Source: an uncultured Oleiphilus sp. (GTDB lineage Bacteria > Pseudomonadota > Gammaproteobacteria > Pseudomonadales > Oleiphilaceae). From it: 53,790 bases of DNA. A model generated the notes under the pieces. That model had not been told where the DNA came from. It searched no databases and saw only the letters and a list, made by a program, of their open reading frames with translations. Every line of letters starts with the position of its first letter. The stretch's first letter is position 1. This document shows positions 3,379-26,095 of the stretch, one piece after another. The translations under genes and the position numbers were made by a program. The DNA lies in NCBI GenBank assembly GCA_913020495.1, contig CAJWBJ010000012.1, forward strand, positions 1 through 53,790. Direction: 5' to 3'.

Positions 3379-4689
<1,311 letters not shown>

Positions 4690-4730
4690 GCTTAAACCTA
4701 ATATTTAATCCAATAATTATCGCTAGAGCG

Positions 4731-4762
4731 GCTCCTACAGATTATTTTTTATTTGTAGGAGC
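4731..4762. terminator. Shared hairpin between convergent purA and dehydrogenase genes
   Basis: GCTCCTACA pairs with TGTAGGAGC (9 bp) around an AT-rich 14-base loop. T-rich sequence follows on the plus strand. The arm TGTAGGAGC resembles intergenic palindromic repeats common in gammaproteobacteria, so it may also be a REP-like copy. Confidence 0.55.
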
Positions 4763-4784
4763 GATCTTCTTTTATTTTTGCTTT

Positions 4785-5657
4785 TTATTTCTTTGGTCTT
4801 AATCGCTCAAGTAAGCTAGAGGTATCCCACCTGTTTCCTCCCATGTCCTGTATGTCTGCATAGAATTGATCAATTAATGCTGTTGCAGGTAGCTTGGCCC
4901 CAAGTTTACGGGCTTCAGACAGGCAGATGTCCAAATCCTTACGCATTAAATCAACAGCAAAGCCATGTTCATATTCTCCTTGAATCATCGTGTCAGAACG
5001 ATTATCCATCTGCCAGGATTGAGCAGCACCTTTAGAAATTACTTCAATGACTTGTCGGCAGTCCAGACCAGCTTGTTCGGCAAAGTGAATCGCTTCAGCT
5101 AAACCTTGAACAACCCCGGCCACAGCGAGTTGGTTCGACATTTTAGTTAGCTGCCCAGCGCCATTTTTTCCAAGAAGTGTAACGGCTTTTGCGTAATTGG
5201 ATATAATGGGTTTGGCTTTTTCAAATGCTGATACTTCTCCACCACACATAACGGTTAACTGGCCGTTGATAGCGCCTTGTTCACCGCCTGAAACAGGTGC
5301 ATCTATGAAATATAATCCTTTCTCGTGTGCTTTTACTGAAATTTCTCGTGCAATACTGGCTGACGCCGTCGTGTGGTCAATTAAAATGGTACCCTTTTGG
5401 CTACGATTAACTAAACCGTTCTCAGATAAATAGATTTCCCTTAAATCCTGGTCATTACCAATACAGGTGATAATGAAATTGAAGTCCTGTAATTGAGTGT
5501 CTAAGGTTTCAAAATTAGCGCCTTTAAACTCATTTAGCCATGCTTTGGACTTGGAGCTAGTTCGGTTAAAAACCGAGGTCAGGACTTGTTTTGAGAGGTG
5601 ACCTGCCATGTGATAACCCATAACGCCTAAGCCAATAAATAACGTTTTTTGTGACAT
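4785..5657 (-). CDS. NAD(P)-dependent beta-hydroxyacid dehydrogenase
   Basis: This is a member of the 3-hydroxyisobutyrate dehydrogenase / tartronate semialdehyde reductase / GLYR1-like family. The N-terminal Rossmann motif is GLGVMGYHMAGHL (residues 10-22), the substrate-binding signature is DAPVSGGEQGA, and the catalytic lysine lies in GQLTKMSNQL, followed by the all-helical C-terminal domain. At 290 residues it is full length. The specific substrate cannot be told from sequence: succinic or glyoxylic semialdehydes are typical for GLYR1-like members, and hydroxyisobutyrate for others. It appears to be a single-gene unit convergent with purA and separated by 86 bases from the kinase gene upstream of it on the same strand. 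Confidence 0.88.
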   Translation of the reverse strand: MSQKTLFIGLGVMGYHMAGHLSKQVLTSVFNRTSSKSKAWLNEFKGANFETLDTQLQDFNFIITCIGNDQDLREIYLSENGLVNRSQKGTILIDHTTASASIAREISVKAHEKGLYFIDAPVSGGEQGAINGQLTVMCGGEVSAFEKAKPIISNYAKAVTLLGKNGAGQLTKMSNQLAVAGVVQGLAEAIHFAEQAGLDCRQVIEVISKGAAQSWQMDNRSDTMIQGEYEHGFAVDLMRKDLDICLSEARKLGAKLPATALIDQFYADIQDMGGNRWDTSSLLERLRPKK

Positions 5658-5743
5658 GAATTTACCATTTAGATTGAAGTTTATTTTTTATATTTATGGT
5701 ACTGCTTTGAGTGTATAAAGTGTCTGAGTGAATAAAAATATTT

Positions 5744-8347
5744 TTATGATTGATTCACAAGTGCAGGAAGCATAATCGTAAAACAAGTACCATGGCCAAG
5801 CTCACTCTCCACAGAAATCGTACCTTTATGCTTTTCTACTACAACCTTCACAAAATTTAAGCCAAGTCCAGCGCCTTTCTCACCATTCATTTCAGTATGA
5901 CGCTGACGACGGAAACGATTGAATATATAGGGTAGCTCATTCTTATCAATACCGAAGCCTTGATCTGTAATGCATAGCTTTGCCATGTTGTTTGTCAGGC
6001 TTAAGGTGAGGGTGATTGATGTGCTACGATCACTGTACTTGATTGAATTTGAAAGTAGGTTGGTAACCATGCGTTCCATCAGCTCTGCATTACCTGATAA
6101 CCATAAGGGGTCATCTTCTTTAAAGATGATTTTAATATCCTTCGATTGAGCAAAATGTGCTTGGGAATCGATGCTGTTTTCTAGTGTATTGGCCAGATCA
6201 AATTCATAAAATTCTTGTTCTGCACTTTGCTCTGCTCGTGTGATCTGCAGAAATTGATCAGACAGACTTAAACTTCGTTTTGCGTGTTGTTCGATATCTT
6301 CAATTAAATCGTTATGCCATTCAATTCTGCCAGAGCGTAAGCCGTGAAGCATAGCAAGCTGAGACACCAGCGGAGAACGTACATCGTGTGAAAGGAAGTC
6401 GATCAATTGGTTTTTTTCACGTTGTTGTTGGCGAATTTTGGTGATATCAGACAGCGTTATCATCAGTCCTGCATCGCTATCTTGATCAACTAAAAAGGGC
6501 ACGCAGTGAATGAGCAAATCGCGTTCATCAAGTTGAATCTCGTCATTACTTTGCTCCCCAGAAATTAGGGCATGACCAATATGTTCAATAATACTGCTGT
6601 GTAGAGATGCGTTGAATAGAGAATGTAGTGGTTTTCCGATTAAACCTTGCTCTGTTTTCTTTAACCAGTTTAGAGCTTGGCTATTACAAAACACTATAAT
6701 TCCGACAGGGTCCGTGACGATAACCGCCCCGGGCATTTCCTCGAAACCTTTGGTGATAAATGTTCGCATGTCTTGCATGGAATTAATTGCATCACGAACT
6801 TTAGCTATTCGACCGGCAATGCGCTCGTAATAACGTCTGTTTACTCGGTTGGGTGGGGGGAGTAAATTGAGCTTGTTGAGGAATTCCTTGACGTAGGCCC
6901 TATTACTTTCGGTACCTGAAGCGGTTTTATCCCATGAAAAACCTAGTTTGAATGTATCCTGATTTTGTTTCAGTTTTATCCAGCTTTCCTGTTCTGTGTG
7001 CTGCCAATGACCTAATGTTTTGATTTTAGCTTTGGTTAAACCTTCTTTTTCGAAGCTGTGTAAGGGCTGGTTATTCTTAATTAGCAGGTAATGTTGTGGT
7101 TTTAATAGTGCGGTTAAGGATAGAAATACTTTTTCTAATGGGTGTTGGTCTAACTTACGAAAATCAATATTTTGTTCTTCGGTTAATCTTGTAAGTTCAT
7201 GATTTAAAAAACTATTAAGATGACGCATTCTCTGCCAGCTCCAAAGTGGATAAGCGAGTAATATGCCTATAACGCTATTGATCGGTGGAAACCAGGTGTG
7301 ATCATAAACGATCAATGCATAACTAAATGCAATAATGAGAAAAACCAATAGAATCGTTGATGGCATTACATGGGTGGGCTTTAAACGAGGGAACATCAAA
7401 ATAGGGATCATAATAAAAGCGAATGTCAGTAAATACCCCCAGATTGAAGATACGGGTTGAATCGCAGTATTTGTCATTAATGCAGAATAAGCATTTGCAT
7501 GTAGCTCTACACCAGACATCGGCGCCCGGGATTTAGAAACGGGTGTGGGAATGATATCGCCTAAACCTGTGGCGCTAGCACCTATTAATACGATTTTATC
7601 CCGGAACATTTCGGCGGGCACTTGATCGAGCATGACATCAAGGTAGCTATAAGTTGGGAATGTGCCGCCAGGGCCAGCAAATGGAATCAACCTATATTGC
7701 GTTTTTACAGACATATAAGGCGCCGCTTTAATGCTTTCGACTTCCCTTATATATTTAATCATGGGGTTTATTTCGCTTGCCATCGCCATAGAAATGCTTG
7801 GCCAGAAGGCATCACCGACCCCTGAGTTTAAAAATAATCCTCTAGCCAAACCATCTTCATCGATATCTACATGAACATGACCCAAGCTTTTTGCTGATTT
7901 TACTAACTCGGGTATGGGGAGTATTTCAGAAAGGGTATTGCCTAGGCTTAAAGGGTTAATGTGTAATGGTAAAATTACATTGCCATTATTTTTTATAGCG
8001 CGTGCAAAAACTGCATCGTCTTCAGGGTAAATTGCCCCACGTTCAGAAAATATAATATCGAAAGAAACTAGTGCGGTATTGTATTCAGTTAGCTTATCAA
8101 TCAGTTGGGCATGAATTCCTCGCCGCCAAGGCCATTGACCTATGCCGTTAAGACTTTTCTCATCAATGGCTATAATAACCGTATTTGGGTCAATAGGTGC
8201 CGGTGCAACATTTATCGCAGTATCATAAGCGAGTAAATCAAGTCGTTTTGCGGCTTGAGTATATACAAGTAGCCCGCTAATAATTAATAACGCGAGGGTT
8301 AGCAGGTATTGCTCATACGGGCGAGGGTCATTAAGCTTAGATGACAT
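5744..8347 (-). CDS. CHASE2-PAS sensor histidine kinase
   Basis: This 867-residue membrane kinase has a short cytoplasmic N-terminus, a first membrane segment (about 17-33), a large extracytoplasmic CHASE2 domain (about 40-300, with VIIAIDEKSLNGIGQWPWRR and the conserved IVLIGASATGLGD near its end), three membrane segments (about 305-372), a linker, a PAS domain (about 540-640) and a HisKA/HATPase core. The phospho-accepting histidine is His654 in FLSHDVRSPL. The N box is NLLSNSIKYS and the G boxes are DQGFGIDKNE and GAGLGLNFVK. There is no receiver domain, so the OmpR-type regulator encoded two genes upstream is the likely partner. CHASE2 ligands are unknown. The gene follows the LysM-FecR gene by 56 bases and is probably in the same operon. 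Confidence 0.92.
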   Translation of the reverse strand: MSSKLNDPRPYEQYLLTLALLIISGLLVYTQAAKRLDLLAYDTAINVAPAPIDPNTVIIAIDEKSLNGIGQWPWRRGIHAQLIDKLTEYNTALVSFDIIFSERGAIYPEDDAVFARAIKNNGNVILPLHINPLSLGNTLSEILPIPELVKSAKSLGHVHVDIDEDGLARGLFLNSGVGDAFWPSISMAMASEINPMIKYIREVESIKAAPYMSVKTQYRLIPFAGPGGTFPTYSYLDVMLDQVPAEMFRDKIVLIGASATGLGDIIPTPVSKSRAPMSGVELHANAYSALMTNTAIQPVSSIWGYLLTFAFIMIPILMFPRLKPTHVMPSTILLVFLIIAFSYALIVYDHTWFPPINSVIGILLAYPLWSWQRMRHLNSFLNHELTRLTEEQNIDFRKLDQHPLEKVFLSLTALLKPQHYLLIKNNQPLHSFEKEGLTKAKIKTLGHWQHTEQESWIKLKQNQDTFKLGFSWDKTASGTESNRAYVKEFLNKLNLLPPPNRVNRRYYERIAGRIAKVRDAINSMQDMRTFITKGFEEMPGAVIVTDPVGIIVFCNSQALNWLKKTEQGLIGKPLHSLFNASLHSSIIEHIGHALISGEQSNDEIQLDERDLLIHCVPFLVDQDSDAGLMITLSDITKIRQQQREKNQLIDFLSHDVRSPLVSQLAMLHGLRSGRIEWHNDLIEDIEQHAKRSLSLSDQFLQITRAEQSAEQEFYEFDLANTLENSIDSQAHFAQSKDIKIIFKEDDPLWLSGNAELMERMVTNLLSNSIKYSDRSTSITLTLSLTNNMAKLCITDQGFGIDKNELPYIFNRFRRQRHTEMNGEKGAGLGLNFVKVVVEKHKGTISVESELGHGTCFTIMLPALVNQS

Positions 8348-8403
8348 GTTGTGGCTGTTACTAGTCCTTATCCTTGGTTTTAATTCTTAAGATGTTTTTA
8401 CTT

Positions 8404-10014
8404 CTAGTCTTTTATAAAGAGTTCTTTTACCGGACCATAATTTGAAGTGTAAAGTTCATTTCCTATTCCTTTAACTCTGGCATAGTAATGCTTTCCAGGG
8501 CTAAGTCTTAAGTGTGCTTTTGATTTTCCAATTGTTTCTTCTTTTAATATGTTTTGGAAGGTACTTGAATCAGAAATCTGCAAAATATAACCATTAGCGT
8601 TTTCAATATTAGCCCAAAATAAGCCTACTTGGCTCTCAATGTAATTAACACTTAATATTTTAACAGGCTTAAGTAGGCCGCGAATAGATAGTTTTCGGGT
8701 AGCGCTCGTACTTTCCTGGCTATTGTTAGCTAATGCAATAATTCGCCAGAAGTAACTGCCCGGGGCCAAATTTTTATTTAGGGAAACCTGTGGGTATGGC
8801 TCAAAATTATAACGAGTTAGAACTGTTTTAAAGTCAGGGTCACTTGAAACTTCTAATTTACCTTTTACGCTGGCATCTTTGAATTTCCAGATAAATGTGG
8901 GTTTAGGATTGTCTAAAATACTTCCATCATGTGGAGCTAGTAGTTCCGCCATTTCAGAGGCGATATCGATGGATAAATTTGAATTTTCATTCATTCCTTC
9001 AAAACCTTTGTTATTCACAGCTCGCATTGCAACACGATAATCGCCATTTTTAACATGCTCTAATGTCACCTCCGGTTTTTTGAGTTTCGAGGAGTGTATT
9101 AGTTTGTTGTTGTTATCAGAAAGTTCATAGCGATAACCTGTTGAGTTTTGCCTATCTTCCCATTGAAGTTTTGCAGGCAGGTCTGTAATAGTATTTTCTG
9201 CAAACTGGGCTTTAGGTGCGATTGGTAAAGAGCTTTTTTCAATGCTTGTAGTTCCTTGTTTAACTCTAGCGCCTTCACCTGCATGTACAGCAACCTTTCC
9301 ATGTTTATGGATGAAATCTACAGTGCCTTCCGTTACTTCAACTTTAGTTTCACCATTGGAGCTCTCTAGACGAAATTTTGTTCCCCTGACTGCCGCAACA
9401 GCTGAAGGTGTCGTTATTTCGTAACGGGAGCCTTTAACTAAGGGGGTTACTTCTGTTGATAGTGAACCTCTTTTTAAACGCATTCGAGTATCGACCATGC
9501 CCGTTTGACCATAATGAGACAATTTATTGAAAACCAAGTTGGAGTTTTTTTCTAAACGAATAATGGTGCCGTCGGCCAATTTGATTAATAGGGTTCCATT
9601 TCTAGTAGCTACTTCATCACCGACATTAATTGCCATATTAGCTTTTAAAATTTTAAAGTAGCTGGCTTTAGTGCGTTTTACTTGTGCGCTACCAGAAATA
9701 GACATGACTTTAGCTGGTTTGGGTTGATGTTTTAACCATTTCATTGGTACGCGGATGATAGAACCGGGTTCCAATGAAGCAATATTATCAATGTGGTTGT
9801 AGCGAACTAGGTCAGACCAGGTGTGCTTTGTATTGAGTAATTGTTTGCTGACTTGCTGTAAATTGTCTGAAGGCCTTAATGTGTAGTGCCATTCTTGTTC
9901 TTTAGTTTCTTTTTCCTGAGCAAAAGTGTTAGGTGAAAGGGTGCAAGCAAGTAATACACAGCATAGTATCGCTATAAACTGTGTTTTTGCTGAAACGAAG
10001 ACGCTCACTTGCAT
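8404..10014 (-). CDS. Secreted LysM-FecR domain protein
   Basis: The 536-residue product has a signal peptide (hydrophobic residues 13-30, likely cleaved after TFA), a LysM peptidoglycan-binding module (about 41-92), a FecR-type domain (about 130-225, with ITTPSAVAAVRGTKFRLES) and three beta-sandwich-like repeats to the C-terminus that each carry a tryptophan followed by Gly-Tyr/Phe-type strands (QWEDRQNSTGYRYELSD; GLFWANIENANGYILQISD). A weaker lipobox-like LLAC inside the signal means lipidation cannot be excluded. FecR domains usually relay periplasmic signals. Here the gene sits between a response regulator and a CHASE2 kinase, so I infer a periplasmic accessory or ligand-sensing protein anchored to peptidoglycan that feeds the kinase. 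The exact role is not known. Confidence 0.85.
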   Translation of the reverse strand: MQVSVFVSAKTQFIAILCCVLLACTLSPNTFAQEKETKEQEWHYTLRPSDNLQQVSKQLLNTKHTWSDLVRYNHIDNIASLEPGSIIRVPMKWLKHQPKPAKVMSISGSAQVKRTKASYFKILKANMAINVGDEVATRNGTLLIKLADGTIIRLEKNSNLVFNKLSHYGQTGMVDTRMRLKRGSLSTEVTPLVKGSRYEITTPSAVAAVRGTKFRLESSNGETKVEVTEGTVDFIHKHGKVAVHAGEGARVKQGTTSIEKSSLPIAPKAQFAENTITDLPAKLQWEDRQNSTGYRYELSDNNNKLIHSSKLKKPEVTLEHVKNGDYRVAMRAVNNKGFEGMNENSNLSIDIASEMAELLAPHDGSILDNPKPTFIWKFKDASVKGKLEVSSDPDFKTVLTRYNFEPYPQVSLNKNLAPGSYFWRIIALANNSQESTSATRKLSIRGLLKPVKILSVNYIESQVGLFWANIENANGYILQISDSSTFQNILKEETIGKSKAHLRLSPGKHYYARVKGIGNELYTSNYGPVKELFIKD

Positions 10015-10060
10015 TTAATTCTCCAATTAGATTTCTTTGTGGAAAGTTTTCATCCCTGTT

Positions 10061-10750
10061 TTATTCGTTTACACGCTCTAAGCGATAACCATGTTGATAA
10101 ATTGTTTTTACCCTAAAACCGTTTTCAGGTTTGATGTTTAGTTTTCGTCGCAAACGGCTCATATGTGTGTCAACTGTTCTGGTATTAATATCACTGGTAA
10201 TGCCCCAGACACGCTCAAGTAAGAAATCTCTTGAAAGTAAACGTCCGATGTTTTGAAACATAAATACTGCCAAATCAAAATCTTTATCTGTTAGAGAAAT
10301 ATCTTCTCCGCTTGACAGAATCGTGCGCTTATTTAAGTTAATGACGTAAGGGTCAATAACTAACTCTTCTTGTTCTTCTGCTTCGTTACTCATTCGTCGG
10401 CTAAGTGCATTTAATCTTGCTTTAAGTTCAGCAGGGCGAGCAGGTTTGACAAGGTAATCATCTGCACCCGCATCTAAAGCAGTAACAATGTCATTTTCCC
10501 CATCTTTTTGTGTCAAAAATAAAACAGGTATGCGCCAGCTTAATTCTGAACGTATTTCTTTTAATACTTCTGTGCCTTCCATATCTGGAAGCTGCCAATC
10601 TAGAATTAATAGATCATAACTATTATGTAGTACCGCATAAGCAAATGATTTTCCTGTATGGAAGTAATCACAGCTATGTCCATTTTCAACCAACAGCGCA
10701 CTCAAATTTTGGGCTTGTTCAATTTCGTCTTCAAGTAGTGCTATTTTCAT
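10061..10750 (-). CDS. OmpR/PhoB-family response regulator
   Basis: The 229-residue regulator has an N-terminal receiver domain with the acidic pocket at residues 8-9, phospho-acceptor Asp51 (LLILDWQLPDMEG), Thr80 and Lys102, and a C-terminal winged-helix domain (about 130-227, ending in VKTIYQHGYRLE). It is the first gene of a three-gene minus-strand operon with the LysM-FecR protein (46 bases downstream) and the CHASE2 kinase, its probable cognate kinase. Targets are unknown. The 294 bases upstream, shared with bolA, must hold its promoter, and autoregulation is plausible but not shown. Confidence 0.92.
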   Translation of the reverse strand: MKIALLEDEIEQAQNLSALLVENGHSCDYFHTGKSFAYAVLHNSYDLLILDWQLPDMEGTEVLKEIRSELSWRIPVLFLTQKDGENDIVTALDAGADDYLVKPARPAELKARLNALSRRMSNEAEEQEELVIDPYVINLNKRTILSSGEDISLTDKDFDLAVFMFQNIGRLLSRDFLLERVWGITSDINTRTVDTHMSRLRRKLNIKPENGFRVKTIYQHGYRLERVNE

Positions 10751-11044
10751 TCTTTTCCCCTGACTTTTTACTTACGCTTTTTTACTACGTAGTTTTGTTT
10801 TTGTATTGTTTTCAGTGTAGATGGTTTTTCAAAAATTCCATTTTTCTTTTTGGATTCAAAGCTTTCCGTTTTAAGTGGCAATTAGTAACTATCTTCGCAA
10901 AAAACACCCTATCAATCATTAATAACACTGTGACGCTTTGTAGTTCTTTTGTATTTGTATGAAATACCTCGCTTTATATGGGGATAAGCAGTAGTATTTT
11001 TGCCCTTCGTAAATACATGTTGAGTTTAATATATGGAGTGCAAC

Positions 11045-11362
11045 ATGAATCGCCAGCAAAAAATTGAATCAATGGTTAATGCTGAACTTAATGTCGCTTT
11101 TATAGAGCTTGTTAATGAAAGTCATAAGCATAGTGTTCCTGAAAATTCTGAAACACATTTTAAACTGACTTTGGTCAGTGATGACTTTAACGGTAAGTCA
11201 AAGGTAGCCCGACATCAGAAAGTGTATGGCGCTGTTAGTACTTTAATGCAAGAAGGGCTACATGCTTTAGCATTACATACCTATACTCCAGAAGAGTGGG
11301 AACAAACACAGCAGGAATCACCGGCATCGCCTAACTGTATGGGCGGGTCAAAAGGAGCTTAA
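11045..11362 (+). CDS. bolA: BolA-family protein
   Basis: BolA proteins partner with monothiol glutaredoxins in iron-sulfur trafficking and, in E. coli, influence morphology and biofilm genes. The 105-residue product has the class II KH-like fold with ETHFKLTLVSDDFNGKSKVARHQKVYG and the C-terminal helix GLHALALHTYTPEEW, which matches BolA itself rather than IbaG. The start is set at ATG 11045 because GGAG lies six bases upstream; an ATG at 11033 overlaps that site. The C-terminal tail carries SPNCMGG, common in BolA relatives. The next gene begins one base after the stop, so they form a bicistron. Confidence 0.92.
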   Translation: MNRQQKIESMVNAELNVAFIELVNESHKHSVPENSETHFKLTLVSDDFNGKSKVARHQKVYGAVSTLMQEGLHALALHTYTPEEWEQTQQESPASPNCMGGSKGA

Positions 11363-11363
11363 T

Positions 11364-11984
11364 GTGAGCCAGTTTTTTCAAATACATTCAGACAACCCAC
11401 AGGCAAGATTAATACGTCAAGCAGTAGATATTATAGAGCAGGGCGGTGTCATTGCTTACCCAACAGATTCCGCTTACGCTTTAGGTTGTCATTTAGATGA
11501 TAAGCGTGCAGTAGACCGGATTCGTCAAATACGGAAATTGAGCGATAAGCATAACTTTACGTTGATGTGTCGTGATCTTTCAGATATTTCTACCTATGCA
11601 AAGGTCGATAATATTCAGTATCGGCAAATTAAGGCGCATACACCGGGCGCTTATACTTTTATTTTAGATGCCACTACTGAAGTTCCTAGACGTTTAATGA
11701 ACCCTAAGCGTCGACAAATTGGTATTCGTATTCCTGATAATCAAATTGCTTTGGCTTTATTAGAAGAATTAGCGCAACCGTTGATGAGCACGACGCTTAT
11801 GTTACCGGGTGATGACGCTCCTTTGACTGACCCTTACGATATTCGTGCCACCTTGGAGCACGTATTAGATTTAGTGATTGATGGCGGTTTCTGTGGTTTT
11901 GATGCAACCTCAGTCGTTGACTTGGCAAGTGAACCACCGATTGTTATTAGAGAGGGTTGTGGTGATGTATCAGCCTTTGGTTAA
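11364..11984 (+). CDS. YciO-like protein of the Sua5/YrdC family
   Basis: The 206-residue protein contains the YrdC-type fold that makes threonylcarbamoyl-AMP in t6A synthesis: GGVIAYPTDSAYALGC, the KHNFTLMCRDLSDI segment and the RRQIGIRIPDN region. The motifs and length fit the YciO branch rather than TsaC, so the in vivo role is uncertain; YciO has been reported to have weak or no t6A activity in cells. The start codon is GTG, strongly supported by AAAGGAG a few bases upstream that overlaps the end of bolA. It ends 16 bases from the convergent hypothetical gene. Confidence 0.85.
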   Translation: MSQFFQIHSDNPQARLIRQAVDIIEQGGVIAYPTDSAYALGCHLDDKRAVDRIRQIRKLSDKHNFTLMCRDLSDISTYAKVDNIQYRQIKAHTPGAYTFILDATTEVPRRLMNPKRRQIGIRIPDNQIALALLEELAQPLMSTTLMLPGDDAPLTDPYDIRATLEHVLDLVIDGGFCGFDATSVVDLASEPPIVIREGCGDVSAFG

Positions 11985-25477: not shown

Positions 25478-26095
25478 ATGCATAACAGCAGTTCAGCACA
25501 CTCAATTAATGCCAACTCAGAGGTCTCTGTTGATCAGAAACTTGTATTGCGGGTTCAGAAAGGGGATAAGAAAGCCTTTGATCTGTTAGTGGTGAAATAT
25601 CAAGGCAAAGTCGCGTCAGTTATCTCCCGTTATGTAAAAGACCATCATGAAATCGCAGATGTTAGTCAAGAAGCCTTCATCAAAGCTTATCGGGCGCTTG
25701 AGCGCTTTCGAGGCGATAGTGCGTTTTATACATGGCTGTATCGGATCGCTATCAATTGCGCTAAAAACTATCTAGTCGCAAAAGGCCGTCGTCCGCCTGC
25801 GGCAGATGTCGATGTAGCAGATGCGGAATTTTTTTCAGGAAATCAACGCTTAAAAGAAATTGCCACACCTGAAAGCTTATTAAATAAAGAACAACTCGAA
25901 AAAGTTGTAAATGACGCTATTTTGGCACTGCCCGAAGATTTACGTATCGCTCTAACACTACGAGAATTTGATGGCTTAAGTTATGACGAAATATCGGAAG
26001 TAATGGCGTGTCCTGTTGGAACGGTTCGCTCTAGAATATTTCGGGCGAGAGACGCGGTAGATAAAGAAATTCATACACTGATGGGGCATAGCTAA
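25478..26095 (+). CDS. rpoE: RpoE, extracytoplasmic-function sigma factor
   Basis: This is the envelope-stress sigma factor (RpoE/AlgU). Region 2 (FDLLVVKYQGKVASVISRYV; RFRGDSAFYTWLYRIAINCAK) and region 4 (ALPEDLRIALTLREFDGLSY; CPVGTVRSRIFRARDA) are nearly identical to E. coli and Pseudomonas. I set the start at ATG 25478 (205 residues) from family length. The frame is open upstream to a GTG at 25322, which has AGGGG seven bases before it and would give 257 residues, so an N-terminal extension of 52 residues is possible. The gene heads the rpoE-rseA-rseB-rseC-degP block and is held inactive by RseA. Confidence 0.93.
   Translation: MHNSSSAHSINANSEVSVDQKLVLRVQKGDKKAFDLLVVKYQGKVASVISRYVKDHHEIADVSQEAFIKAYRALERFRGDSAFYTWLYRIAINCAKNYLVAKGRRPPAADVDVADAEFFSGNQRLKEIATPESLLNKEQLEKVVNDAILALPEDLRIALTLREFDGLSYDEISEVMACPVGTVRSRIFRARDAVDKEIHTLMGHS

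Follow-up and report, generated by a model that had tools for sequence, protein, structure and literature searches.

The question raised by this locus is whether a periplasmic protein carrying a FecR domain signals to the CHASE2 domain of the histidine kinase encoded next to it, as the earlier note had proposed. The three genes lie on the minus strand of the window (the whole 53,790-nucleotide stretch of DNA that was analysed, to which coordinates refer unless a locus is named), and the open reading frames and Pfam domains agree on the order regulator, LysM-FecR protein, CHASE2 kinase. The first gene (10061..10750, 229 aa) encodes an OmpR/PhoB-family response regulator with the Pfam domains Response_reg and Trans_reg_C. 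It is followed after 46 bp by the gene for a LysM-FecR-three-Fn3-like protein (8404..10014, 536 aa), called 'PBP' in PMC5192318, and, after a further 56 bp, by that for a CHASE2-PAS-HisKA-HATPase histidine kinase (5744..8347, 867 aa). Pfam places in the kinase a CHASE2 domain (7406..8287, 192.1 bits), a PAS domain (6440..6730, residues 540-636) and a HisKA and HATPase_c core (5765..6418, residues 644-861). An orthodox two-component domain set, a HisKA/HATPase_c kinase and a receiver/DNA-binding regulator, is present, and phosphotransfer between the pair is predicted.

The second protein starts with what looks by eye like a signal peptide, and LysM (9745..9885, residues 44-90; 20.9 bits, exactly the cut-off) and FecR (9319..9615, residues 134-232; 69.6 bits) are the only Pfam families that reach the cut-off in it. 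Its AF2 model (pLDDT 91) is beta-rich C-terminal to the LysM part, with tandem fibronectin-type and similar beta domains among the Foldseek matches listed, and the 'three beta repeats' read earlier from the sequence correspond in this model to three fibronectin-III/Ig-like domains (8407..9213, residues 268-536). The CHASE2 part of the kinase was predicted with a pLDDT of 87, and a Foldseek search of this model against the PDB gave no match with E below 0.001. Sequence searches against solved structures returned a single non-significant match each for CHASE2 (E 0.72) and for the LysM-FecR protein (E 0.41).

The operon cannot be regarded as new, since Voronina et al. (2016, PMC5192318) had already described the trio under the name BiofilmReg operon in Burkholderia contaminans. 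The available portions of that paper describe the gene order in Burkholderiales and report that biofilm formation was lost in a strain with an interrupted regulator gene; exact orthologs are mentioned there from Burkholderiales alone, next to a partial pair from Pseudomonas, and the three-gene form is taken as ancestral. The operon in the window shares with the one described there a response regulator, a LysM-FecR 'PBP' and a CHASE2-PAS kinase in the same order on one strand, and its kinase has the BiofilmReg-type domain set CHASE2, PAS, HisKA and HATPase_c. It belongs to the known BiofilmReg type, as far as this is defined in those portions, here in an Oleiphilus-like genome. The Burkholderia operon, as characterized there, adds a fourth gene for a DUF4136 lipoprotein, whereas at that place the window has, on the same strand, a 290-aa ORF that is dehydrogenase-like by eye. 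In one relative, a small lipoprotein-like gene (L162:8618-9061) separates the kinase from the dehydrogenase-like gene, and similar ORFs follow the kinase in L163 and L164; the closest Oleiphilus relatives are those with this extra gene, and the window has just 86 bp at that place.

The FecR domain (PF04773) is common to the window protein and to FecIR/FecA sigma regulation, but the operon in the window has neither an adjacent sigma gene nor, in the Pfam list, an anti-sigma family. The closest Sigma70_r4_2 match in the window lies about 15 kb off (25913-26053). This match falls inside a 264-aa open frame. No cytoplasmic anti-sigma N-terminal domain was found in the LysM-FecR protein in the Pfam list to E 1, and LysM starts at residue 44. 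The sole FecR match of the source genome (G000) is the window's own.

We then examined whether the trio is conserved. The closest named relatives, among the matches listed, are Oleiphilus and Oleiphilaceae records with 62-70% identity across CHASE2. Of 80 named loci, the best of 445 relatives, 78 have the LysM-FecR gene immediately upstream of the kinase gene and in the same orientation, and the remaining two are cut by contig ends, so that all 78 readable named loci conserve the arrangement; as these loci were found by a CHASE2 profile built on trio kinases, the figure holds for close relatives. The regulator is also upstream on the same strand in 75 of the 80. In a set of 58 relatives, 54 of 63 CHASE2 matches have a FecR match no more than 4 kb away, and 37 of 39 kinase-sized CHASE2 proteins have a FecR gene upstream on the same strand; of the two exceptions, one (G026) is at a contig end and the other (G041) is a cyclase by local profile. 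FecR was present in 41 of 41 genomes having CHASE2, versus 6 of 17 lacking it.

To these can be added 100 regions (60 best-scoring phylum-sample matches and 40 relatives), which together with the window hold 103 CHASE2 ORFs as classified by local profiles. A FecR shares the region with 32 of the 35 CHASE2 kinases, with 25 of the 56 cyclases and with 5 of the 12 remaining ORFs. The kinase homologues in the regions read thus usually have the FecR gene beside them, contrary to what would have spoken against the earlier proposal. The 31 of 56 CHASE2 cyclases without FecR in the region read count against a coupling of the two domains; 34 genomes have a CHASE2 whose region is without FecR, and every one of them has a FecR match somewhere, sometimes beside another CHASE2. 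The outputs of the FecR-linked CHASE2 proteins comprise kinases, cyclases, one GGDEF-EAL protein and one SpoIIE protein. In the GGDEF-EAL case (L159:4788-8656), the gene for a FecR protein lies 30 bp upstream. A 3295-aa CHASE2 cyclase ORF (L090) was considered as a natural fusion and rejected; Pfam finds only CHASE2 and cyclase in it, and we judge its N-terminal part to be high-GC read-through.

A similar association appears in the literature. The available portions of PMC9239204 place FecR-domain proteins next to CHASE2 adenylate cyclases in Campylobacterota, so that a CHASE2 protein and a FecR-domain protein are clustered there as in the window; these clusters differ in having an adenylate cyclase as output and a phosphodiesterase and a TPR protein as neighbours. 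In the full-text literature, with subscription journals mostly outside it, we found no work joining the kinase and cyclase cases or testing FecR-CHASE2 coupling.

Co-variation between the two domains was estimated with a domain-level mirror-tree of 88 trios, obtained from 105 after duplicate and length filters. With ranked distances, the FecR-CHASE2 partial correlation (0.37) was the highest, but that of the DNA-binding domain of the response regulator with CHASE2 was 0.33. With unranked distances, FecR-CHASE2 (0.42) was second to the two halves of the regulator (0.55). The bootstrap range for FecR-CHASE2 was wide (0.03-0.42).

The loss of CHASE2 in some relatives provides a natural experiment. 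Within a Marinobacter-like genus, CHASE2 was found in 105 of 124 genomes; among the 19 without it, a LysM-FecR-like gene persists in 14, a single genome has a fragment where a contig ends, and four have no FecR, two of these four being genomes that are 76-82% complete. In three further genomes of the genus, CHASE2 occurs solely in another, GGDEF-EAL-sized protein. This gave 18 operons with a FecR gene but without a CHASE2 kinase (17 Marinobacter-like and G019 of another genus). Left out of this set were G510, whose genome is partial, G512, in which the reading frames of FecR and CHASE2 are broken, and G532, which has a piece of LysM at the end of a contig. Fifteen of the 18 have the kinase minus CHASE2, and the region of the other three (L257, L258 and L261) yielded no operon kinase; these three keep the LysM-FecR gene, and their regulator is truncated or missing. 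In the ten CHASE2-less kinases examined of the 15, either CHASE2 has been excised from between the membrane helices or the N-terminal end is missing; all ten have an intact H-box and G1 motif, and nine have the G2 pattern. The reverse case is seen in one genome (G494), which has the regulator and the CHASE2 kinase and lacks the LysM-FecR gene. Of 43 conserved CHASE2 positions, 42 and 40 are retained in two CHASE2 kinases that have no adjoining FecR gene, which is evidence against coupling.

In the LysM-FecR proteins, the clearest change concerns Arg210 of the VRGT motif (codon 9385..9387), which is present in 88 of 88 CHASE2-bearing trios and altered in 12 of the 18 CHASE2-less operons (Lys in three, Asp in three, Asn in one and Gln in five, the last being a decayed clade; Arg remains in six). 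This clade of five CHASE2-less proteins shows broad decay. In the 13 less-decayed proteins, with gaps set aside, 29 of 299 conserved FecR cells are altered; the figure is 0 of 182 for the Fn domains and 2 of 47 for LysM. The FecR glycines and Thr212 are unchanged in these 13, save Gly172. Two more FecR positions, within the stretch from Arg197 to Val206 (9397..9426), are altered mainly along CHASE2-less branches.

We mapped these changes on a tree built without FecR columns. The truncated L179 and L205 had been omitted by hand from sets A3 and A4. The parsimony minimum was four changes for the CHASE2 state, of which just two are forced by well-supported branches, and five for Arg210 (six in a second count), every one on CHASE2-less branches. 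Conserved columns were chosen with a 90% threshold on the 39 rows that do not belong to the affected clade; in these columns, changes on CHASE2-less versus CHASE2 branches numbered 29 versus 5 in FecR, 3 versus 10 in Fn and 4 versus 1 in LysM (Fisher p 0.0012 for FecR against Fn and LysM together), the Fn counts stemming almost wholly from one column, Tyr294. When the decayed clade was removed, the contrast was weaker (FecR 16 versus 5, p 0.009), and with a 95% column cut and the same removal it was not significant (p 0.21); a sign test on independent pairs had no power, the pairs being too few. These counts show statistically a dependence of FecR constraint on CHASE2, drawn from few independent events. 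The loosening is not confined to FecR, because LysM was undetected in 7 of the 18 CHASE2-less proteins and its conserved columns also changed more often on CHASE2-less branches. Nor is FecR useless without CHASE2, since CHASE2-less operons retain the gene and a third of them keep Arg210. As the protein persists without CHASE2 and its Fn positions are still conserved, a second role of the LysM-FecR protein, beyond CHASE2, is implied. This persistence is the main fact that a FecR-CHASE2 coupling does not explain.

We also looked at site 210 in other FecR contexts, in related sequences chosen from longer lists and, for linked domains, within 2 kb of CHASE2. Arg occupies the site in all 31 FecR domains linked to kinases, in 22 of 26 linked to cyclases or other outputs and in 3 of 47 that are ECF-linked. 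Two of the 26 are LysM-type operons with the kinase core cut off or unrecognised, and minus these Arg stands at 20 of 24. Unlike the window protein, the ECF-linked domains are hydrophobic at this site in 18 of 18 of one set and have Arg in 3 of 29 of the other; the three with Arg are identical around the motif. Six 'unlinked' FecR domains (Leu in five, Val in one), with the sigma gene unscored, stand outside the 47, and in one of the FecR samples 30 of 37 places gave loci. Orphan FecR proteins have Arg210 in 17 of 22; three orphans have CHASE2 nearby by local profile, and one with Arg (L244) comes from a genome without a CHASE2 match. On these sequences, Arg210 is a mark of FecR proteins that are not sigma-linked, and it is compatible with, though no proof of, a contact with CHASE2.

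The reading that we prefer, tentatively and at slightly less than an even chance, is an envelope-sensing two-component system whose accessory protein would be anchored to the wall and would signal to CHASE2 through its FecR domain. Judging from the domains, LysM would attach the accessory protein to peptidoglycan, its Fn3-like domains would serve as a spacer or binding arm, and FecR would communicate with the CHASE2 of the kinase, which would control the PAS/HisKA/HATPase core and, through it, phosphorylation of the regulator. The earlier proposal of such signalling is supported by the conserved trio, by FecR genes beside CHASE2 proteins of varied output and by the FecR positions that loosen after CHASE2 loss; the direct contact, which these positions may reflect, is the part that we infer. 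If LysM-FecR and CHASE2 instead sensed separate cues and merely shared an operon, as proposed for BiofilmReg in the available portions of PMC5192318, where the PBP and the kinase are held to sense different signals, the survival of the FecR gene without CHASE2 and the fixed CHASE2 columns without FecR would both be accommodated. Such parallel sensing predicts neither the change of conserved FecR positions after CHASE2 loss nor the FecR genes beside CHASE2 genes of other outputs, and we consider it unlikely.

The loosening itself might be a general relaxation, with the whole accessory protein drifting after CHASE2 loss and FecR and LysM being its more tolerant parts. The undetected LysM domains, the LysM column changes and the broad decay of the clade of five point that way, but the unaltered Fn cells of the 13 less-decayed proteins do not, and the change is patterned, because these proteins keep Thr212 and, with the one exception given above, the FecR glycines; we regard such drift as quite improbable. 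It is also conceivable, at low probability, that FecR uses its Arg210 face to bind some other protein of the envelope, either a barrel of the outer membrane or a lipoprotein, which feeds CHASE2, so that the loss of CHASE2 would make this binding needless. The FecR of FecIR systems binds a domain of an outer-membrane receptor. Moreover, in the available portions of the respective papers, the outer-membrane barrel NsrA acts upstream of CHASE2 cyclases (PMC13001267) and the FecR protein of the Campylobacterota CHASE2 clusters is termed an outer membrane protein (PMC9239204). Against such a third party, no shared downstream partner is evident as the next gene, because in the best 80 of 445 relatives, among the 76 loci with a gene call after the kinase, 54 have that gene in the opposite orientation.

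Signalling from FecR to CHASE2 could be generalized further: FecR may be a portable periplasmic input module for CHASE2 receptors of any output (kinase, cyclase, GGDEF-EAL or SpoIIE), with Arg210 of the VRGT turn as the key coupling residue, a doubtful extension to which we give an appreciable minority chance. If it is true, CHASE2 could respond to differing envelope cues through fusions of FecR with LysM, TPR or cadherin-like parts. The CHASE2 ligand is described as unknown in the available portions of PMC5192318, and one CHASE2 input is named in those of PMC13001267, a plant protein sensed via the barrel NsrA. With a neighbour that is conserved, a residue that can be named and strains that have lost CHASE2 naturally, CHASE2 perception would become open to experiment.

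The genome of the window holds a second CHASE2 protein (G000 contig C4, L157:4684-6525), which has a cyclase-like C-terminus by local profile and is followed by a small secreted-looking protein. Across 4600-11200 of the window, promoter- and terminator-like sites were fewer than in shuffled sequence, and a repeat search upstream of the regulator detected a single direct repeat and a single inverted one. Divergent BolA-like and YciO-like genes lie upstream of the regulator (11033-11984), and each has a blastp match in 60 of 80 loci (the best 80 of 445 relatives).
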